Shown: piece by piece, positions 55,625-64,000 of the stretch
How the letters are laid out: every line of letters begins with the position of its first letter
Numbering within the stretch: the first letter of the stretch is position 1
NCBI GenBank assembly: GCA_900320585.1
Contig: ONSV01000009.1
Location: 1-64,000 of the forward strand
DNA length: 64,000 nt
Direction: 5' to 3'
Source of the DNA: an uncultured Prevotellaceae bacterium
GTDB lineage: Bacteria; Bacteroidota; Bacteroidia; Bacteroidales; Bacteroidaceae
Notes under the pieces: model-generated
Database searches by the model: none
Seen by the model: only the letters and a program-made list of their open reading frames with translations
Told to the model about the DNA's origin: nothing
Program-made: the position numbers and the translations under genes

Positions 55625-56518
55625 TCAGAAAATCCTGTCGAGCAGGATATCCCACGCCGACTTGTTGTTGAGCGCTCTGTCGGCGGCATGATAATGGCTG
55701 CGCATATCGGAGCGGAGGTCGCTCACCGCCATGTAGTGGCCATAGACAGCGCGGGCAGAGTCGGCGAAAAGGCTCACCTCTCGCCCTACCCCGTCGTAAC
55801 GTTCCTGAAAAGCCTCCCAACTCGTCCCTGGGTTGGCCAAGGCCGCCACGCAGTGCTCCAGGTAGCGGTAATGCGCCTTTTGGAGCCGGGTGGGCACCGA
55901 GTCGAGCTCATGCATCAGATGGGTGTTCTTGCTCAGGTAGGAGTCGGTCTGGTAACGCCGTGCCTCACGGATACGGTCTTTCGAGTCGGCTATCGACTTG
56001 AAGTCTCTCCTTTCGGCAAGGTCGCAAGCCTGCCTGTACTTATTGAGCACGTCAGCCACACGGTCGAGTTGTCCGCTGACCGAAGGCCTGAGGTCCACGA
56101 TGGTCTTTCTTTCGCTGTTCTCTATCCCCCTCAGGAGTTGGATACGTTGCCGCATTTTCCTCAAGTCACTGTCGTCCCATACCGACCAGCCAAACTTCAG
56201 TTCGCATTTTCTCACGAATGCCGGCACGTATTTCTCCATGAGCATCATCTGCAGCGTATCGCTCTCGCCTGGCCGCAGCAGTTGGTTGTCGTCAAGGAAA
56301 CCGATGAGATGATGGGCGGCAAACCACCGCTGGTCGAGCGTATCGGAGTCGAGTCCTTGGTGTACATTGTCGATCATCCGTCTCACCAGAGCGGCCTGTT
56401 CGCCATCATGCGAGACAGCCCTTGGAGGGTCGAGTCGCAACTTGGCAAAGAACAGGAGCGACCCTGCCACCGCGGCGATGGCCAGCGACAGAAGAAACAC
56501 TTTGAGCGATGTCTTCAT
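55625..56518 (-). CDS. Membrane-anchored helical protein of the GTPase cluster
   Basis: 297 residues. One N-terminal membrane segment (VFLLSLAIAAVAGSLLFFAK, residues ~7-26) is followed by an entirely helical region (e.g. DQRWFAAHHLIGFLDDNQL, RKMRQRIQLLRGIENSERK). No known family recognised. Its start overlaps the stop of the 609-residue gene by 4 bp (ATGA at 56518-56515), implying translational coupling and a shared function. The large soluble part is probably periplasmic if the first segment is an uncleaved anchor. Confidence 0.7.
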   Translation of the reverse strand: MKTSLKVFLLSLAIAAVAGSLLFFAKLRLDPPRAVSHDGEQAALVRRMIDNVHQGLDSDTLDQRWFAAHHLIGFLDDNQLLRPGESDTLQMMLMEKYVPAFVRKCELKFGWSVWDDSDLRKMRQRIQLLRGIENSERKTIVDLRPSVSGQLDRVADVLNKYRQACDLAERRDFKSIADSKDRIREARRYQTDSYLSKNTHLMHELDSVPTRLQKAHYRYLEHCVAALANPGTSWEAFQERYDGVGREVSLFADSARAVYGHYMAVSDLRSDMRSHYHAADRALNNKSAWDILLDRIF

Positions 56519-58344
56519 TTTTTCTCGTCCTTGGTTTCAGGTTGTTGCACCGTCTCGGCAGCACCTTTTTCGGGAATATACCCTGCCGTCTGGTCGAGCA
56601 CCGAGATGTATTTCTCGAGCGTGATGGAGCCATCCTTGCTATAAGGCGACCGTGTGGTCTTGAGCGTATTGAGCACATCGGGCTTCTTGGCCCTGTCGAC
56701 GGCCTCTTTCAGTGCTTGCCACTGTTTGCTGCCTGTGAGATGGAGCGAGTCGGTCTTGGCATCGAAGGTATCGAAGTCGTACTCATTGAGGGCGTCGAAG
56801 ATACCCGCGAGAGCACCGTCGAAGAGCGAGTCGGCCTCGGCCTTCACCCACTTCTCGGTATTGTCGATGTAGCCTACCAGCTCGGCCTGCCGCAAGGAGT
56901 CGGCACGCTGCTTCTCGGCCTTTATCCTCATCGCGGTTTCCTCCTCGGCTTTCTTGTTCATGGCACGTTCCTTCATCCACGCGCCAGCCATCCATCCCAA
57001 GAGGAGTCCTAACACGAGGCCTATGCCCAGCGCATAGAAGAACTTCCTTGAGATTTTGGGCTTGGAGGATTTCTTGGCCGTGCGGCCACCCCGCGGCGCG
57101 CCAGCCACCTTGCTCACAATACCCTTCTTCTGCACGTCGGTCTTGTCGCGTTCCAAGGTCACCTGATGCCCATTCACTGTGTTTACCCTATAGCCGGGCA
57201 AGGGCGACCGCCTGGCATCGAGTTCGGGCCAGTCGATGTCGAATTTCACGCGTGTGTTCCTTGGGGTGCCGTTTACCGAGTAGCTCATCCTTGTCAATGC
57301 CTTTTGCAGGACAATGGTCACTTTCTTGCCTTTCGTGAGGTCCACCACCTCGTCTTTGTCTTGGTAGCCGTCGCACTTCACGATGAAATGGGCCTGGGTG
57401 AGCTCGCTCTCTGGCATGACGCGGCAATCCTTCCCCGCTATCTTCACCATCTCGGAATCTCTCACATCTACATGCTTGCTGTCATTGACGATGGGATTGC
57501 CCTCCTCGTCGACCAGGTTCACGGTCACGCCACTGATGATACGCCGCCAGCGGATATCGGCGGGCAAAGTGGCCTCGCAACGGTTCTTATGCACCAAGAA
57601 GTCAAAGGCGAAAGGCGCGCAGTTGTCCTTGCGCAGTTCCAGGGGCAGGCGGTCGCCCACCCTGCTGAGCACGGGTTTCTCGAAGGCCCTGTCGGTGCCC
57701 CGATGATAGATTTTCCCATTATTGGCCAAGGCCTTTTTCTTGGGTGGTGCCACAAGGGCAGGAGTGCCCAGAAGATGGTTGGTGAGGTCGGCCATCTTCT
57801 CTGTACGTGCCAATGGGGCCTGCGTCCGGTCGAGCAGGAACACCCCCTCGTATTGTGCATACTCGGGTTGCAGCAAGGCAGGTCCGAGCAGATCGGCGGC
57901 CGTATGTTTCTCTCCCTTGCCAAAAATGCGGAAAGCATAGTTGTTATCGTTCCTGGGCACGTTCCATTCAAAATCGAGCTCCTGGTAATCCCTGCTGAAC
58001 CATCCACTCAGTTCAGCGGTGTCGCCTCCCTTGGCCAGCACATCGGCGGCAGCACCGACGATGGTGGGCAAATCGGCCAGGGCCGTCATCAGGACCTTCC
58101 GTGGCACGAAGATGGCGAGCGCCCGATAGTCGCCTACCCTGGAGAAGAGGGGTTTGATGACATACACCATGCATCCGCCTTGGCGCAGCGCTATCATCCT
58201 CAGGATGCCGTTGAAGTCGACGGGGAGCGAGAGCGTTCCTCCCGTCCTGACGTCGAATATCCGTCCGTTGTCGGTACCATTATCGAACACCAGTTCATGG
58301 TCCTCGCCATTCTTGATCAGTTGCGAATATAAACTTAGTCTCAT
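56515..58344 (-). CDS. Single-pass membrane protein of the GTPase cluster
   Basis: 609 residues of unrecognised family. N-terminal region 1-200 is globular and may be cytoplasmic (HELVFDNGTDNGRIFDVRTG, YRALAIFVPRKVL). Residues ~265-350 look like a PEGA/carboxypeptidase-regulatory beta domain (VTVNLVDEEGNPIV, KKVTIVLQKAL). A basic stretch (RTAKKSSKPKISRK) precedes one membrane helix at ~435-457, then a Glu/Lys/Ala coiled coil and a Ser/Asp-rich tail. The positive-inside rule puts the N-terminal part in the cytoplasm. It could be a GTPase partner, as in paired-GTPase cassettes, but sequence alone does not prove this. Confidence 0.7.
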   Translation of the reverse strand: MRLSLYSQLIKNGEDHELVFDNGTDNGRIFDVRTGGTLSLPVDFNGILRMIALRQGGCMVYVIKPLFSRVGDYRALAIFVPRKVLMTALADLPTIVGAAADVLAKGGDTAELSGWFSRDYQELDFEWNVPRNDNNYAFRIFGKGEKHTAADLLGPALLQPEYAQYEGVFLLDRTQAPLARTEKMADLTNHLLGTPALVAPPKKKALANNGKIYHRGTDRAFEKPVLSRVGDRLPLELRKDNCAPFAFDFLVHKNRCEATLPADIRWRRIISGVTVNLVDEEGNPIVNDSKHVDVRDSEMVKIAGKDCRVMPESELTQAHFIVKCDGYQDKDEVVDLTKGKKVTIVLQKALTRMSYSVNGTPRNTRVKFDIDWPELDARRSPLPGYRVNTVNGHQVTLERDKTDVQKKGIVSKVAGAPRGGRTAKKSSKPKISRKFFYALGIGLVLGLLLGWMAGAWMKERAMNKKAEEETAMRIKAEKQRADSLRQAELVGYIDNTEKWVKAEADSLFDGALAGIFDALNEYDFDTFDAKTDSLHLTGSKQWQALKEAVDRAKKPDVLNTLKTTRSPYSKDGSITLEKYISVLDQTAGYIPEKGAAETVQQPETKDEKK

Positions 58345-58365
58345 GGTCTTGATATGTTGTTTTTG

Positions 58366-59535
58366 TTATTTCCTATTGAAGACTCTGTCCCAAAAACCTT
58401 TCTTCTTCTGCGCCGTAAGCAGGATTTTGGTCACCACCTCGCTGGCCTGGTCGGTGTTCATCCGGCAGAAGTTCTTGAAGCACACGTCGCCGATGTCGAA
58501 CATGAACGGCGGGGGCAGCTTCCCTCCATTGATTTTGTATTCACGGCAGCATCTGTCGAGCAGTCCCATGAAGTTGGAGTAGTTGTGGTGGATGAAATCC
58601 TCAATATGGTCCATCTCATACTCCCCTTCCTTCAGGTTGTGGGCCACCTTGTCGGTCTTGGTCACCAGCACATAGATGCCGTCGGTGTGGTTCTTCAGCA
58701 CCTCGTTGTTCTTCAGGTAGGTAAGGCCCGTGGTGAGGTATTGGTCTTGCAATGTGCCCTTGTAGGCCTTGCGCTCTGCACCATACTCGATGATGAAGAT
58801 ATGTATCTTCCGATTCTCGGAGGGGTTGTTGACAAGGATTTTGTTGAGCGAGCCCAGGGCATCCTGGTGACGCTCGTCGTACTTGTCATAACTGCCGGCG
58901 GGCAGCCACTGCAGGTAGCAGAAGAGCTCGCCAGCCATATCGATAAGGGTCACTGGGTGCACCTCGTTTTTCAGGTCCTCGAGCTGGAGCCCGATAGCGA
59001 AATTGGTCTTCACGGGTGTACGTCCTGGCAGCACGCAGAAGTCGCCGTTGTTGGTGAAGATGCTCTCGAGTTTCGACTCATAGCCGAAGTCGTGGGCGTT
59101 GTTGGTCACGGGCTCCACGCTGAGCACGACATTCCGGTTGGTCTTCGCCGCGCAGAGGATACTGCCCAGGGCGCAGGTCTTTCCTGAGGAGGGAATACCC
59201 CAGAGATACACCTCGAGCGAGCCTTCGTCGATATGGTCGATGGAGCCTTCGACGTCGATCATCTCAGTGATGGGCGTACCAAGCATGTCGACGAATCCGC
59301 GGTCGATGCCGCAGTCGTTCTCCAGTTCGGTCTCACTGATGATCCTGTTGCTCACGAGATAGTTCACCGTTGCCGCATCGAGCAGGTTGTGGTCGTCGGC
59401 AATGAGTGTCTTCAGTTCATCTATCGAGAGGTTGCCTTTGTCGATGGCCTCGGCAATGTAGATGGCAGGATTGTCTTGCAAGTCAATCTCCCTGCAAAAC
59501 CGTCTCATGTTTTCCGTGAATTCTGTTTTTGGCAT
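58366..59535 (-). CDS. P-loop GTPase, second of a tandem pair
   Basis: 389 residues. A ~100-residue helical N-terminal domain (with DDHNLLDAATVNYLV) precedes a GTPase domain: G1 GIPSSGKT (113-120), G3 in LIDMAGE (D199-G202) and G4 TKTD (292-295). GRTPVKTNFAIGLQLED is a probable switch-like region. It is a paralogue of the next gene upstream (59577-60755), with G motifs at the same positions. The IPSS loop and conserved C-terminal FDIGDVCFKNFCRMNTD block are not features of Era/Ras-like GTPases I know. It may be part of an envelope-linked signalling pair. Confidence 0.8.
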   Translation of the reverse strand: MPKTEFTENMRRFCREIDLQDNPAIYIAEAIDKGNLSIDELKTLIADDHNLLDAATVNYLVSNRIISETELENDCGIDRGFVDMLGTPITEMIDVEGSIDHIDEGSLEVYLWGIPSSGKTCALGSILCAAKTNRNVVLSVEPVTNNAHDFGYESKLESIFTNNGDFCVLPGRTPVKTNFAIGLQLEDLKNEVHPVTLIDMAGELFCYLQWLPAGSYDKYDERHQDALGSLNKILVNNPSENRKIHIFIIEYGAERKAYKGTLQDQYLTTGLTYLKNNEVLKNHTDGIYVLVTKTDKVAHNLKEGEYEMDHIEDFIHHNYSNFMGLLDRCCREYKINGGKLPPPFMFDIGDVCFKNFCRMNTDQASEVVTKILLTAQKKKGFWDRVFNRK

Positions 59536-59576
59536 TTTATCTTGTTTTTTTTAATTGCGAATGATGGCATGATACG

Positions 59577-60755
59577 TCAGTTGTCGAAGATCTGGGTGAT
59601 TTTTCTCACCAGGGGGTTCTTGCTGAATCCCTTCGACTCTCCCAGTATGATTTCCCTGGCCACCACCTTGGCCGTGTCGGTGTTGAGGCGGCAGAAGTTC
59701 TGGAAACACACGTCGCCGATGTCGAAGGGGAACACGGGTGGCAGGTTGCCGCCGCAGATCTCGAACTCACGGCAGTATCGCCGCAACAGCCCGATGAAGT
59801 TGGGATAGTTGTCCTCTACGAATCTCGTCACATGCTCCTCCGGTGTCTCGCCTGGCGCCAATGCCTGGTGCATCTTGTCGGTTTTGGTCACGAGCACATA
59901 CACCCCATCGGTATGGTTCTGCAGCACTCCACAGTTCTTCAGGTAGGTAAGGCCGGTGGTGAGATACTTGTCCTGCAGCGTGTCTTTGTATTTCTTTCCC
60001 TCACGGCCATACTCCACTACGAAGAGGTGTATCTTGCGGTTGTCGGTGGGGTTGTCGACCAGTATCCGGAGAAAAGTCTCGAGAGCCTTGCGGTGGTCCT
60101 CATAGTCGCCCACCTTCCCCACGGCCATCCAATGGATATAGCAGAAGAGCTCGCCGGCCATATCGATGAGGGTGACGGGGTGCACACGCCCATTGCTGTC
60201 CTCCAATTCCAGCCCGATGGCGAAATTGGTCTTCGTGGGCGTACGGCCAGGCAACTTGCAAACGGCATGATTGACGGGGAACACCTGCTCGAGCTGGGTC
60301 ATGTATTCATAGCCCTGCGAGGTGGACTGAGGCACCACGCGCGTGGCCACGTCCTTGTCGGTGCGGAGCGAGCACAAGAGCGCGCCCAGTGCACAGGTCT
60401 TGCCCGACGAGGGGATTCCCCAGAGATAAATCTCAGTATTCCCGCCATCGATAAGACTGATATTTCCTCCTGTATCGTCCATCGACGTGAGCGTCGAACC
60501 GAGCATTCCCACGAAACCAGGGTCCACATGGCAGTCGGTCACCAGTTCGTCCTTGGTGAGCACGCCGCTTCTCACCAGCGAGTGCACCACTCCGGCATCC
60601 ACCAGGTTGTGGTCGTCGCGCAACAGGGTTTTCAAGTCGGCCACGCTGAGGTGTTTCTCATCGAGCAGACGCTGGATGAGGGGCAGGGCGTCGGCCTCCT
60701 GGTCCAAAGCCCTGCACAGGGCCTTCATCTCTATGGTATAGTTGTCTTTGGTCAT
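59577..60755 (-). CDS. P-loop GTPase, first of a tandem pair
   Basis: 392 residues with the same layout as its neighbour: helical N-terminal domain (KTLLRDDHNLVDAGVV), G1 GIPSSGKT at 113-120, G3 LIDMAGE (D198-G201) and G4 TKTD (290-293). KTNFAIGLELED and the C-terminal FDIGDVCFQNFCRLNTDTA are also shared. The two proteins look roughly half identical, so a tandem duplication with later divergence is inferred. The gene starts 11 bp after the stop of the four-span membrane protein gene, so they are cotranscribed. Confidence 0.8.
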   Translation of the reverse strand: MTKDNYTIEMKALCRALDQEADALPLIQRLLDEKHLSVADLKTLLRDDHNLVDAGVVHSLVRSGVLTKDELVTDCHVDPGFVGMLGSTLTSMDDTGGNISLIDGGNTEIYLWGIPSSGKTCALGALLCSLRTDKDVATRVVPQSTSQGYEYMTQLEQVFPVNHAVCKLPGRTPTKTNFAIGLELEDSNGRVHPVTLIDMAGELFCYIHWMAVGKVGDYEDHRKALETFLRILVDNPTDNRKIHLFVVEYGREGKKYKDTLQDKYLTTGLTYLKNCGVLQNHTDGVYVLVTKTDKMHQALAPGETPEEHVTRFVEDNYPNFIGLLRRYCREFEICGGNLPPVFPFDIGDVCFQNFCRLNTDTAKVVAREIILGESKGFSKNPLVRKITQIFDN

Positions 60756-60766
60756 GCGGTTGGAGT

Positions 60767-61813
60767 CTATGGGTTGGGATGGGTGGCAGTGCCCTCTGGA
60801 TTTGTCGTTCGCTCAGGCACCGTCGTCGGTTGGCGGCGCGCCACCACGCTCCAGTCGGGCTGTGGTCCTTTTTTCTTTCCCCTAAGGCGCTCCCACGATT
60901 TGGAGTGCCGTGACTGGAGCCAATAGGGGAAGAACATCATGGCCATTGCTGCCAAAAGCAGGAGGATGGCATAGAAGGGTGGAGCCGACCTCTTGGCACA
61001 TGCTTTGGTGAGACGGTTGAGCTTCTCCATGGCCAATGCGGCATGGGCACTCTCGAAACCAGTGGTGTCGGCCTTCTCCTCATTGTAGAGGCGCTGCCTC
61101 ATGTCCTGGTCCATGGTCTTCTGCCATGAGTCGATGGCACCTGCGGTGAGGTTGGCGTTGCCCAAGAGGAAAACGTTCCATGTCGAGGCACCAGCCTGTG
61201 CCTTCTCCACCCATCGCTGGGCATCATGGCGCAGGCTGTCGTGGGCGGCGGGTTTCAGCAGAGTGGTCATGGCCTTCAGCATATTGTCGCGCATCACGCC
61301 CAAGCCCTTGTCGGTCATACCCTCGTTGTGCTTGCCGAATCCATATTTGGAGTAGTTTTTCGACTGGGTGCCCTTCACGCTTCTCAGCCGTTTCCGGTAG
61401 CTGGCTATCCGCTTGTCGGCAATGCTGTCGTACTCATCGAACATCGGCATGATTTCGGCCAGGGCCTCATCAAACTGCCGGGTGACTTGCCGGTTGCGGT
61501 CGGCCACAGAGAAGAAGTGGAGAAAGGGAAAGGCGGGAGCCAACAGCACAATGGCCAATGCCACCACGGCTATTCTCTCCTTGGAGATGCTGCTCGCAAA
61601 CCTGCTTTCGGCACCCTTCATTTGCTGGGCCTTGAAGCACAACAGCACCCAGGCCATGCCGATGGCCAAGGCCACCAAAGCCGACAGTTCCAGCCGGCCA
61701 CGGGTGAGGTATACCAGTCCCATGAACGAGATGTAGGCCACGAAGATGGCCGCCACCACGGCGACAATCTGTCCGAGCGCGGTCTTTTTTACCTTATGGT
61801 TGATACTATTCAT
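60767..61813 (-). CDS. Four-span membrane protein of the GTPase cluster
   Basis: 348 residues. Hydrophobic helices lie at roughly 12-35 (IVAVVAAIFVAYISFMGLVYL), 40-60 (LSALVALAIGMAWVLLCF), 80-102 (IAVVALAIVLLAPAFPFLHFF) and 282-302 (AILLLLAAMAMMFFPYWL). A large helical loop lies between the third and fourth spans (residues ~105-280). No known family. A periplasmic or cytoplasmic position of the loop cannot be settled. The gene precedes the GTPase pair by 11 bp and follows the transpeptidase-like gene after an 89-bp gap that contains a dispersed repeat. Confidence 0.72.
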   Translation of the reverse strand: MNSINHKVKKTALGQIVAVVAAIFVAYISFMGLVYLTRGRLELSALVALAIGMAWVLLCFKAQQMKGAESRFASSISKERIAVVALAIVLLAPAFPFLHFFSVADRNRQVTRQFDEALAEIMPMFDEYDSIADKRIASYRKRLRSVKGTQSKNYSKYGFGKHNEGMTDKGLGVMRDNMLKAMTTLLKPAAHDSLRHDAQRWVEKAQAGASTWNVFLLGNANLTAGAIDSWQKTMDQDMRQRLYNEEKADTTGFESAHAALAMEKLNRLTKACAKRSAPPFYAILLLLAAMAMMFFPYWLQSRHSKSWERLRGKKKGPQPDWSVVARRQPTTVPERTTNPEGTATHPNP

Positions 61814-61838
61814 TTTCTTTATTCATGTTTCGCATTCG

Positions 61839-61880
61839 CTCAACTTCTTGGAATTCAGAAGTTCTGGAGTTCAGACCATA
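61839..61880. repeat. Dispersed 'GTTCAGAAGTTCAG' element, copy 5
   Basis: CTCAACTTCTTGGAATTCAG continues into AGTTCTGGAGTTCAGACCAT. It retains the AGTTCAGA units and the CTCAACTT half-hairpin but is more diverged. It sits between two genes of the GTPase cluster. Confidence 0.6.
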
Positions 61881-61902
61881 GTCCGGATTTCGTCTCTCAC
61901 TC

Positions 61903-64000
61903 CTAAAGATATGGCTTGGCGAGTTGGTAGAACCGCCTGAGCCGGTCGGCATTCTGCGAGAAGAAATTGCGGGCGTCCGACGACTGTATGCCATTGCCCT
62001 TCTCTTTCTTGTTGGCCATCACACGGGTCACCCTCACCACGCACATCAGTCCGCGTCCGCCCTTTCCCTGCTGCACCTGCTTGTAAGCGCTCTCGGGCAT
62101 CAGGGCCATACAGTAGATGCCCACGTCGAGTTTGGAAAGTCTTCCGTCAATGCGTTTCTGCTCCATCCGTGTATAGTTGTCGGGCGTACCGGTCTTGGAG
62201 AAGAGCAGCAGTTTGTCGGTAATCTTCTGTTTACTGTTCAGGTCATCAACAACCCGTTGCATGGGTGTGAGCAGTCGGGGCGACTCGTGCTGTGCGGCAA
62301 GCAGGGCCTTCAGCACGGCGTTCCAGGAGTTGTTGGTTGCGGTGTCGGTCACCAGGCTGGCTGCCATACTTGGGTGGCGTGGGGCCACGAGCGAGGCCTC
62401 CACCTTTCTTTTGGTAAGCATTCTTGTCCAAGCCTCGGCCAGTTTCAGGCAGTTCCACTCATTGGTTCCCTGTCCGAGTACCCATGGCACGAGTTCACGT
62501 TTCATCGTGGCCCCAGGACGTGTGAGATTGTCGAAATAGAGCAGCGTGGGGTCGGGGGTGATGTTGTCGAGCCCGAAATGCTCCACCTTGTCGAGTCCAA
62601 GATTGTTCCATGTATAATAGGCCATCTGCAGACTGTCGTGCTCGTTATATGCCTTCATGTCGGGCAAGGTGTAGAGATAGTCGAGTTTTCGCACGAAGGG
62701 AGCGTTGGCCCAGGTGAAGTTGTCGTTGTTGCCCACATACACCTCCTTGCCCTTGAACGTGAACGGACTGCCCGTCTTGCTGCCGTAGTTGAGTGCCTTG
62801 GCCACCAGGGCCACGGGGTAGACATCATCGGAGGCGGCGAGGAAACGGGTCATTGATGAGCATCCGTTCCAGAAGCCGCTCGAGGTGGCGTCGTTGGCCC
62901 ATGCCGTGGTGGTATGTCCGAGGAACATGGCTTTCTGTCCATCCAACCGATAGTCGGAAGCGCCCGTGGAGAGTGTCGCCAGACTGGGTTTGGTGAGTAC
63001 GGCGGCCAGTGCCACAAGGGGTTTGAACGATGACCCCACGTACCTGCGCATGAGGGCGGGGTTCTTGCGTCCCAGGGCCAGGTCGTAGTCAAGGTTCTTG
63101 TCGGCCGAGCGGTAATATGGCGCGGCCACCACGCATCCGGTGGCCATATCCATGACGGTGAACGAGAGTTCCCACTGGTCCTTGGCATTGAAACGGCTCT
63201 TCAGTTGGTTGGCATAGTTCTCCAGTTCCTTCTCCATCATCATCGAGAGCATCGGGTCGATGCTCAACCGCACGGTGTCGCGGTATACGGAGTTGCGCAG
63301 CGTGGTGGAGAGTCCGCTCAGCAACTGTTGCGAGAACCTGTCGGTGAGCGAGGGGTCGATGTTGTAGCGTGCCTTCCCGGCATTGGAGTGGATGAGCGAC
63401 GACAGGGTGAGCATGGGGTTCTGCCTCGTCACCATGAGTTCGGCCATCTTTCCTCCATCCGAGATGCGGGTCACCATCAGCTTTACATTGCCGTTCAGGT
63501 TGTATACCCCGCCGTCCATAGCCGACGACGAGGACTTCTGCTTGGGCATGGCACCCTGCTCATCGTATGCCGTCACGTGGCACCCGGTGGTCTTCAGCCT
63601 CAGTTTCCCGCCTTCCACATAGTCGAGATAGAGGGCAGCCTGTGCCTCATCAAACTTTACGCACATCGTGGTGTTGCCCGCCTCATAGTCTTGGTAGAGA
63701 CGCATGTAGTCGGTCGCCTTGCTGTTGTCGCGACGCAGCGCGTGGTTCTTGCTATCGGCCCTCACCACCACCTCATGGCCGCCGTCGGTGGCAAGATGTC
63801 CTCTTCCCGACATCCGCAAGGGCATCACCGACTTGCCCCACACCACGAAACAGTGGTTGGACATGGGGAAGAGCGCGTTGTCGGCACAGGTCACCGTACC
63901 CACCCAGGGGTCTTTCACCAGAGCCAGCTTGAACATACCCGCCACCACCTCGATGCTCCGTATGCTGAGCGTGTCGGAGTCGGCGAACCGGATACGGAAC
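61903..64000 (-). CDS. Penicillin-binding-protein-like transpeptidase, 5' end missing
   Basis: The frame is open to the right edge (…F-R-I-R-F-A-D-S-D-T), so at least 699 residues of the C-terminal part are visible. VRLSIDPMLSMMMEKELE and FTVMDMATGCVVAAP resemble the linker and start of a PBP transpeptidase domain. YVGSSFKPLVALAAVL supplies S-x-x-K (codons 63021-63032) and LLFSKTGTPDN the KTG motif (62188-62196). The middle motif is S-D-D in AASDDVY instead of SxN. The ~230 residues before this are beta-rich and may be an FHA-like or other non-catalytic domain; this is not certain. Envelope location and peptidoglycan-related activity are inferred. Confidence 0.75.
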   Translation of the reverse strand, partial: FRIRFADSDTLSIRSIEVVAGMFKLALVKDPWVGTVTCADNALFPMSNHCFVVWGKSVMPLRMSGRGHLATDGGHEVVVRADSKNHALRRDNSKATDYMRLYQDYEAGNTTMCVKFDEAQAALYLDYVEGGKLRLKTTGCHVTAYDEQGAMPKQKSSSSAMDGGVYNLNGNVKLMVTRISDGGKMAELMVTRQNPMLTLSSLIHSNAGKARYNIDPSLTDRFSQQLLSGLSTTLRNSVYRDTVRLSIDPMLSMMMEKELENYANQLKSRFNAKDQWELSFTVMDMATGCVVAAPYYRSADKNLDYDLALGRKNPALMRRYVGSSFKPLVALAAVLTKPSLATLSTGASDYRLDGQKAMFLGHTTTAWANDATSSGFWNGCSSMTRFLAASDDVYPVALVAKALNYGSKTGSPFTFKGKEVYVGNNDNFTWANAPFVRKLDYLYTLPDMKAYNEHDSLQMAYYTWNNLGLDKVEHFGLDNITPDPTLLYFDNLTRPGATMKRELVPWVLGQGTNEWNCLKLAEAWTRMLTKRKVEASLVAPRHPSMAASLVTDTATNNSWNAVLKALLAAQHESPRLLTPMQRVVDDLNSKQKITDKLLLFSKTGTPDNYTRMEQKRIDGRLSKLDVGIYCMALMPESAYKQVQQGKGGRGLMCVVRVTRVMANKKEKGNGIQSSDARNFFSQNADRLRRFYQLAKPYL

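Follow-up and report, generated by a model that had tools for sequence, protein, structure and literature searches.

A patchily distributed gene cluster of Prevotellaceae and relatives combines a predicted SEDS-fold protein, a class-B-like penicillin-binding protein and P-loop GTPases

The window analysed in this study covers positions 1-64000 of a 75,559-bp contig (ONSV01000009.1) of an uncultured Prevotellaceae bacterium, whose genome assembly is split into 273 contigs. At the right-hand end of this 64,000-nucleotide stretch, a preliminary description had reported six packed minus-strand genes, and all six open reading frames (ORFs) were found there. From low to high coordinate, they encode a 297-aa protein (55625..56518) with an N-terminal membrane anchor at residues 7-25, a 609-aa protein (56515..58344) with a single membrane span at 435-453, the 389-aa GTPase B (58366..59535), the 392-aa GTPase A (59577..60755), a 348-aa protein with four membrane spans (4TM protein; 60767..61813) and a 1,179-aa fusion of an adaptor domain with a penicillin-binding protein (PBP). 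The gaps between them amount to -4, 21, 41, 11 and 89 bp, and a hydropathy script reproduced the reported topologies, counting four spans for the 348-aa protein and a single one for both the 609-aa and the 297-aa protein. However, the six-gene description was incomplete, as the run continues past the window edge and comprises eight genes in total. Extending the contig to the right, a check proposed in that description, revealed that the PBP gene reaches from 61903 to contig position 65442 (window part 61903..64000). It is followed, likewise on the minus strand, by the genes for GTPase C, a 560-aa P-loop NTPase (contig positions 65445-67127), and for a polytopic 927-aa protein with a predicted SEDS fold (67155-69938), at distances of only 2 bp and 27 bp. 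The longest ORF of the latter gene would encode 949 aa, but since most close relatives are 925-935 aa long, the start was assigned to an inner ATG. The most telling member of the locus, which had first been read as PBP plus GTPases, lies outside the window.

This SEDS-fold protein consists of an N-terminal transmembrane (TM) segment, a beta-rich domain of about 330 aa and the predicted SEDS-fold core. Its predicted model matches solved SEDS structures and displays the SEDS transmembrane fold. We call it a SEDS-fold protein that, judged from this model, might work like a SEDS protein, and not a member of PF01098. Two ordinary PF01098 genes, which we read as FtsW and RodA, are also present in the same genome.

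The PBP fusion starts with a predicted cytosolic adaptor domain (to about residue 250), which is joined by a linker and a single TM segment (344-362) to a class-B-like PBP with pedestal (510-1179). The motifs SxxK and KTG that had been reported before are present as SSFK at 804 and KTGT at 1083, together with SDD at 871, and SxxK and KTG are invariant in 59 aligned PBP rows. The predicted model matches solved PBP structures, i.e. a transpeptidase fold with pedestal, and the PBP of one relative (locus L054) scores with 23.8 bits above the Pfam Transpeptidase cut-off of 22.1. A glycosyltransferase 51 domain was not found in the fusion by Pfam, and there is only one TM segment, as in class B PBPs. 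A possible identity as PBP1A (NCBIfam 19-20 bits, cut-off 508.75) was dropped, since the fold matches shown are entries named PBP2, PBP3, PBP4 or PBP5. With a SEDS-fold protein encoded beside this PBP, the two are likely to form a complete synthase pair.

For the conservation analysis, the SEDS alignment was used to scan genome contigs from 84,980 species; of the 80 pattern matches examined, 55 encode a relative, representing at least 51 loci. Together with the window this makes 52 loci, of which 42 are testable, the SEDS gene being followed by 7.5 kb or more, while 10 fell short of this and were left out. Three assemblies supply two loci each (L118/L123, L129/L136 and L135/L137). The loci were selected by the SEDS gene alone, and the family hidden Markov models were built from the same loci. 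Altogether, 166 SEDS and 189 PBP homologues were found; 120 of each are listed, and 65 SEDS and 55 PBP sequences were aligned. GTPase C and the PBP occur in all 42 testable loci and the adaptor in 41, the genes always standing on one strand, and the strict order SEDS-NTPase-adaptor-PBP is kept in 40. The SEDS-fold gene has in every testable locus a nearby class-B PBP partner, as expected of a SEDS protein. The adaptor is encoded in the same gene as the PBP or in a neighbouring one, and L094 is the sole locus in which no adaptor domain was detected between the NTPase and the PBP. The core association still holds where the identity of the SEDS gene has fallen to 24%. The hosts are mostly uncultured Prevotellaceae, many of them from the rumen, next to Muribaculaceae, Porphyromonadaceae, Marinilabiliaceae and one Chlorobiaceae bin. 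The conserved core, including the PBP and the SEDS-fold gene, bears out the earlier view of a coherent cluster coupled to the cell wall.

The genes around this core are more variable. A 4TM protein and a GTPase follow downstream of the core in 14 of the 42 loci, as in the window, and in 11 of these 14 the 4TM protein is fused to GTPase A. Another 16 loci carry a GTPase with a TM segment upstream, accompanied by a 4TM gene in 15 cases, while in the remaining one (L121) the contig ends first. A five- or six-span protein is encoded between SEDS and NTPase in six loci, and six show none of these accessory layouts. Relatives of the 609-aa protein occupy the same place in other loci, and in several loci those of the 297-aa protein close the run. 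GH25 genes are found in 13 of the 42 loci (one verified by Pfam, 3.9e-43). In two relatives, L054 (3575-4504) and L055, a lipase-like gene (Mbeg1-like, 1.2e-5) precedes the cluster.

GTPases A and B are paralogues with 54% identity. Both contain the GTPase motifs named in the preliminary description, namely GIPSSGKT (at 113 in each), DMAGE (198 in A, 199 in B) and TKTD (290 in A, 292 in B). GTPase C possesses a P-loop (GSVGVGKT) and DVPGE. In 13 relatives (L111, L113, L115, L117, L120, L122, L124, L126, L128, L132 and L134-L136), two consecutive genes match GTPase C; paired NTPases therefore recur in the system.

The membrane-associated GTPase genes are not restricted to this cluster. When searched with the GTPase, 20 of the 201 family genomes gave matches, and nine such neighbourhoods were mapped. 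Seven of them (L045, L046 and L049-L053) contain SrfC and subtilase genes, six of these also SrfB. The 4TM protein is present in all seven and the GTPase was mapped adjoining it in six; in the seventh, L049, the GTPase search placed the match at the 4TM gene. For L045, the Pfam matches are SrfB (1.8e-205), Virul_Fac (3.2e-89) and Peptidase_S8 (4.2e-41), and L045 and L046 encode clear relatives of the 609-aa and 297-aa proteins as well. No SrfB, SrfC, subtilase or 4TM genes were seen in the neighbourhoods L047 and L048. The SrfABC-type clusters of the same family thus share with our cluster the 4TM protein, mostly with its GTPase, and in two cases the 609- and 297-like genes, but in them the place of the window's SEDS, GTPase C and PBP fusion is taken by SrfB, SrfC and a TM-anchored subtilase. 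None of the eight proteins of the window cluster matched PF07520 or PF10139 (SrfB, SrfC) at E<=1. One membrane GTPase module appears to be used with two outputs.

Overall, we interpret the cluster as an accessory peptidoglycan synthase, built from a SEDS fold and a class-B-fold PBP and gated from the cytosol by GTPases, and give this reading a probability of roughly 0.6. It is based on which genes the cluster contains and how they are conserved, the structural matches of the two predicted models, the SxxK and KTGT motifs, the GTP-binding motifs in GTPases A and B, and the gene fusions. The SEDS-fold protein would polymerise lipid II and the PBP would cross-link the new strand. A relay of adaptor domain and TM segments might convey to the SEDS-PBP pair the nucleotide state of GTPase C and of the module of GTPases A and B with the 4TM protein. 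Where a relative has a GH25 gene, its muramidase could open the old wall at sites where new wall is inserted, and the 609-aa and 297-aa proteins may serve as further membrane-anchored scaffold or sensor parts.

The known SEDS-class B PBP synthases (RodA-PBP2, FtsW-FtsI, SpoVE-SpoVD) resemble the cluster in that the gene for a polytopic protein, here with a predicted SEDS fold, lies near one for a class-B-fold PBP that has SxxK and KTG. They differ from it, since the SEDS part of the cluster is without detectable profile similarity to PF01098 and the protein carries an extra N-terminal TM segment and the beta-rich domain. Further differences are the adaptor domain, SxD in place of SxN, the NTPase gene in every testable locus and the patchy occurrence. 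In the FtsZ-FtsWI divisome, a cytosolic GTPase directs a SEDS-PBP pair, as is proposed for the cluster; the putative GTPase switches described here are P-loop proteins encoded in the cluster itself and not tubulin-like. Searches of the eight proteins against Pfam, NCBIfam and PADLOC gave only weak matches or matches below the cut-off, and sequence searches of the PDB returned nothing useful. In agreement with the preliminary description, no system with this gene set was found in the literature searched, which covered few subscription papers.

Several observations weigh against the proposed synthase. The SEDS assignment is founded on predicted structure: PF01098 is not matched by the protein at E<=1, a comparison by hhalign of the SEDS part with 16 RodA/FtsW sequences reached 1.6% (1.4% for the core alone), and Foldseek by itself found nothing below E 0.001. 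A forced global alignment to RodA/FtsW ended in a meaningless result of 22 columns. The catalytic aspartate of E. coli RodA is D262 in a periplasmic loop (PMC10449877), and no strictly conserved counterpart of it could be assigned in the SEDS-fold protein. Residue 755, the nearest one by hand alignment only, is acidic in 54 of 68 rows (37 E, 17 D); D768, E770 and D786 are other acidic candidates for this role. The PBP of the window scores 13.2-14.4 bits and hence below the Pfam Transpeptidase cut-off, and in 59 of 59 rows SxD replaces the SxN motif usual for PBPs. GTPase C lacks [TN]KxD, so that its nucleotide is uncertain, and a control of the SEDS-PBP pair by GTPases is suggested by linkage, fusion and topology only.

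The strongest alternative takes the SEDS-fold protein not for a lipid II polymerase, but for an inactive scaffold or for a polymerase or ligase of another lipid-linked sugar. The PBP would then modify or merely bind the wall, and the cluster would build or anchor a surface polymer instead of normal peptidoglycan. We regard this alternative as unlikely, though it deserves serious attention.

We rate lower still a conflict or defence system, in which the GTPases would detect an attacking phage or a damaged envelope and set off the SEDS-PBP pair, with the muramidase where present, to seal the wall or kill the cell. This idea goes back to the likening of the locus to paired "double" GTPase (DO-GTPase) conflict cassettes, which are treated in Kaur et al. 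2020 (PMC7159879) and in the PSP survey (PMC11237479). GTPase pairs with membrane partners in the cluster do resemble the layout of the predicted conflict systems in PMC7159879: the paralogous P-loop GTPases have DxxGE, their partners span the membrane, and relatives of the cluster possess a GTPase with four N-terminal spans. The cluster differs from the systems portrayed there by the lack of detected GAP1, GASH and FNIII domains (none of the eight proteins matches them in Pfam at E<=1) and by its constant wall-synthase output. GAP1 was also not found at E<=1 in the adaptor proteins of four relatives, and when the adaptor domain was compared by profile with GAP1-N1 proteins, the value was 0.2%. 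A search for GAP1-M (0 of 148) is uninformative, as it also missed a genome (G240) that has a GAP1-N1 protein. The words FtsW, RodA and transpeptidase are absent from the main text of PMC7159879.

The kinship of the GTPases does not help the defence reading either. In hhalign comparisons with a bona fide DO-GTPase pair adjoining GAP1-N1 and GASH genes in another genome (L149), GTPases A and B reached 85% and GTPase C 77%. The values against Ffh were 59% and 34%, and 88% for the DO-GTPases themselves, whereas non-GTPase profiles gave 0.1-0.8%. The upstream-type GTPase of the relatives reached 82% against Ffh and 6.5% against DO-GTPases. With the Pfam model DO-GTPase1, GTPase A scores 21.4 bits, which is under the cut-off of 27 and within the range of five Ffh proteins (named by eye; 18.9-23.1 bits). 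Because the unrelated Ffh scores high too, the kinship to DO-GTPases is not specific, and the comparisons show P-loop GTPase kinship that leans at most slightly to DO-GTPases. The likening to the conflict cassettes could thus not be upheld. In another family, a 328-aa DO-GTPase-like GTPase (27.1 bits) is encoded beside a 349-aa three-span protein (L150:8766-10827), possibly a distant version of the pair of 4TM protein and GTPase.

The distribution of the cluster is patchy and not universal, a feature that would suit a defence system, as would the recurrence of its 4TM and GTPase genes beside another kind of output module. The cluster was found in 4 of 201 genomes of the family sample and in 2 of 296 of the phylum sample. 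In the order sample, 4 of 295 genomes matched, one being the genome of the window itself, the only clear case; the three weak matches were discarded as two PiT-type transporters (named by eye) and one frame with stops. Against defence stand the core genes, which are constant over the 42 loci, the weak PADLOC scores (best E 0.0033) and the lack of any relative among viral contigs, where none of 95 pattern matches encodes one, so that a phage origin is not indicated. At the window locus, the near-side neighbours are of housekeeping type (an argH-like gene, tRNA-Leu and a ComM-like gene, the proteins named by eye); no search for defence genes was made around the other loci. For defence, one of the roles suggested in the preliminary description, no direct evidence was found. 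Finally, that the genes are chance neighbours in this genome, a thought invited by the fragmented assembly, can be dismissed with near certainty in view of the gene fusions and of the neighbourhood comparison proposed in that description, in which the identical core recurs on one strand in 42 of 42 testable loci even at the lowest SEDS identity.

Directly upstream of the cluster, a gene for an AraC-type regulator is located at contig positions 70244-71140 on the minus strand (Pfam HTH_18, 2.9e-18). Its counterpart likewise precedes the cluster in the two nearest relatives, with 93% identity in L090 and 67% in L089, where one ORF intervenes, and it is a candidate regulator of the cluster. Beyond it lie divergent genes of the TolC/HlyD/ABC exporter type (named by eye). 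Between the 4TM gene and the PBP gene, a REP-like intergenic element is present at window positions 61820-61890, with the core GTCTGAACTCCTGAACTCC...AGTTGAGCGAATGCGAAACTT; of 201 candidates, 40 were scored, and 38 of these are short matches to it at other places in the genome. A similar copy was seen by eye upstream of the SEDS gene (contig about 69940-70250). Since REP-like copies flank the SEDS-NTPase-PBP half, the cluster may consist of two transcription units.

SEDS-PBP pairs are among the main machines that build the bacterial cell wall, and what activates them is still to be explained. A compact system in which such a pair is coupled to GTPases of its own would make the nucleotide control of wall synthesis directly testable, and the fusions hint at which parts touch each other. 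Going further, the cluster might represent a previously unseen SEDS branch that has a periplasmic domain of its own and acts together with a class-B PBP, which a cytosolic adaptor would connect across the membrane. Dedicated P-loop GTPases would start wall synthesis here as a direct trans-membrane switch in place of FtsZ or MreB filaments, and the module of 4TM protein and GTPase, with partners of the 609- and 297-type, would serve envelope machines as a general plug-in controller with at least two outputs. We put this wider proposal forward tentatively, as a quite conceivable reading to which we do not give preference. There is likely a SEDS-fold branch that is invisible to sequence models, and similar hidden pairs may exist elsewhere. 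The common 4TM and GTPase genes link the cluster of these Prevotellaceae to the unexplained SrfB/SrfC/subtilase cluster and suggest a reusable trans-envelope controller.
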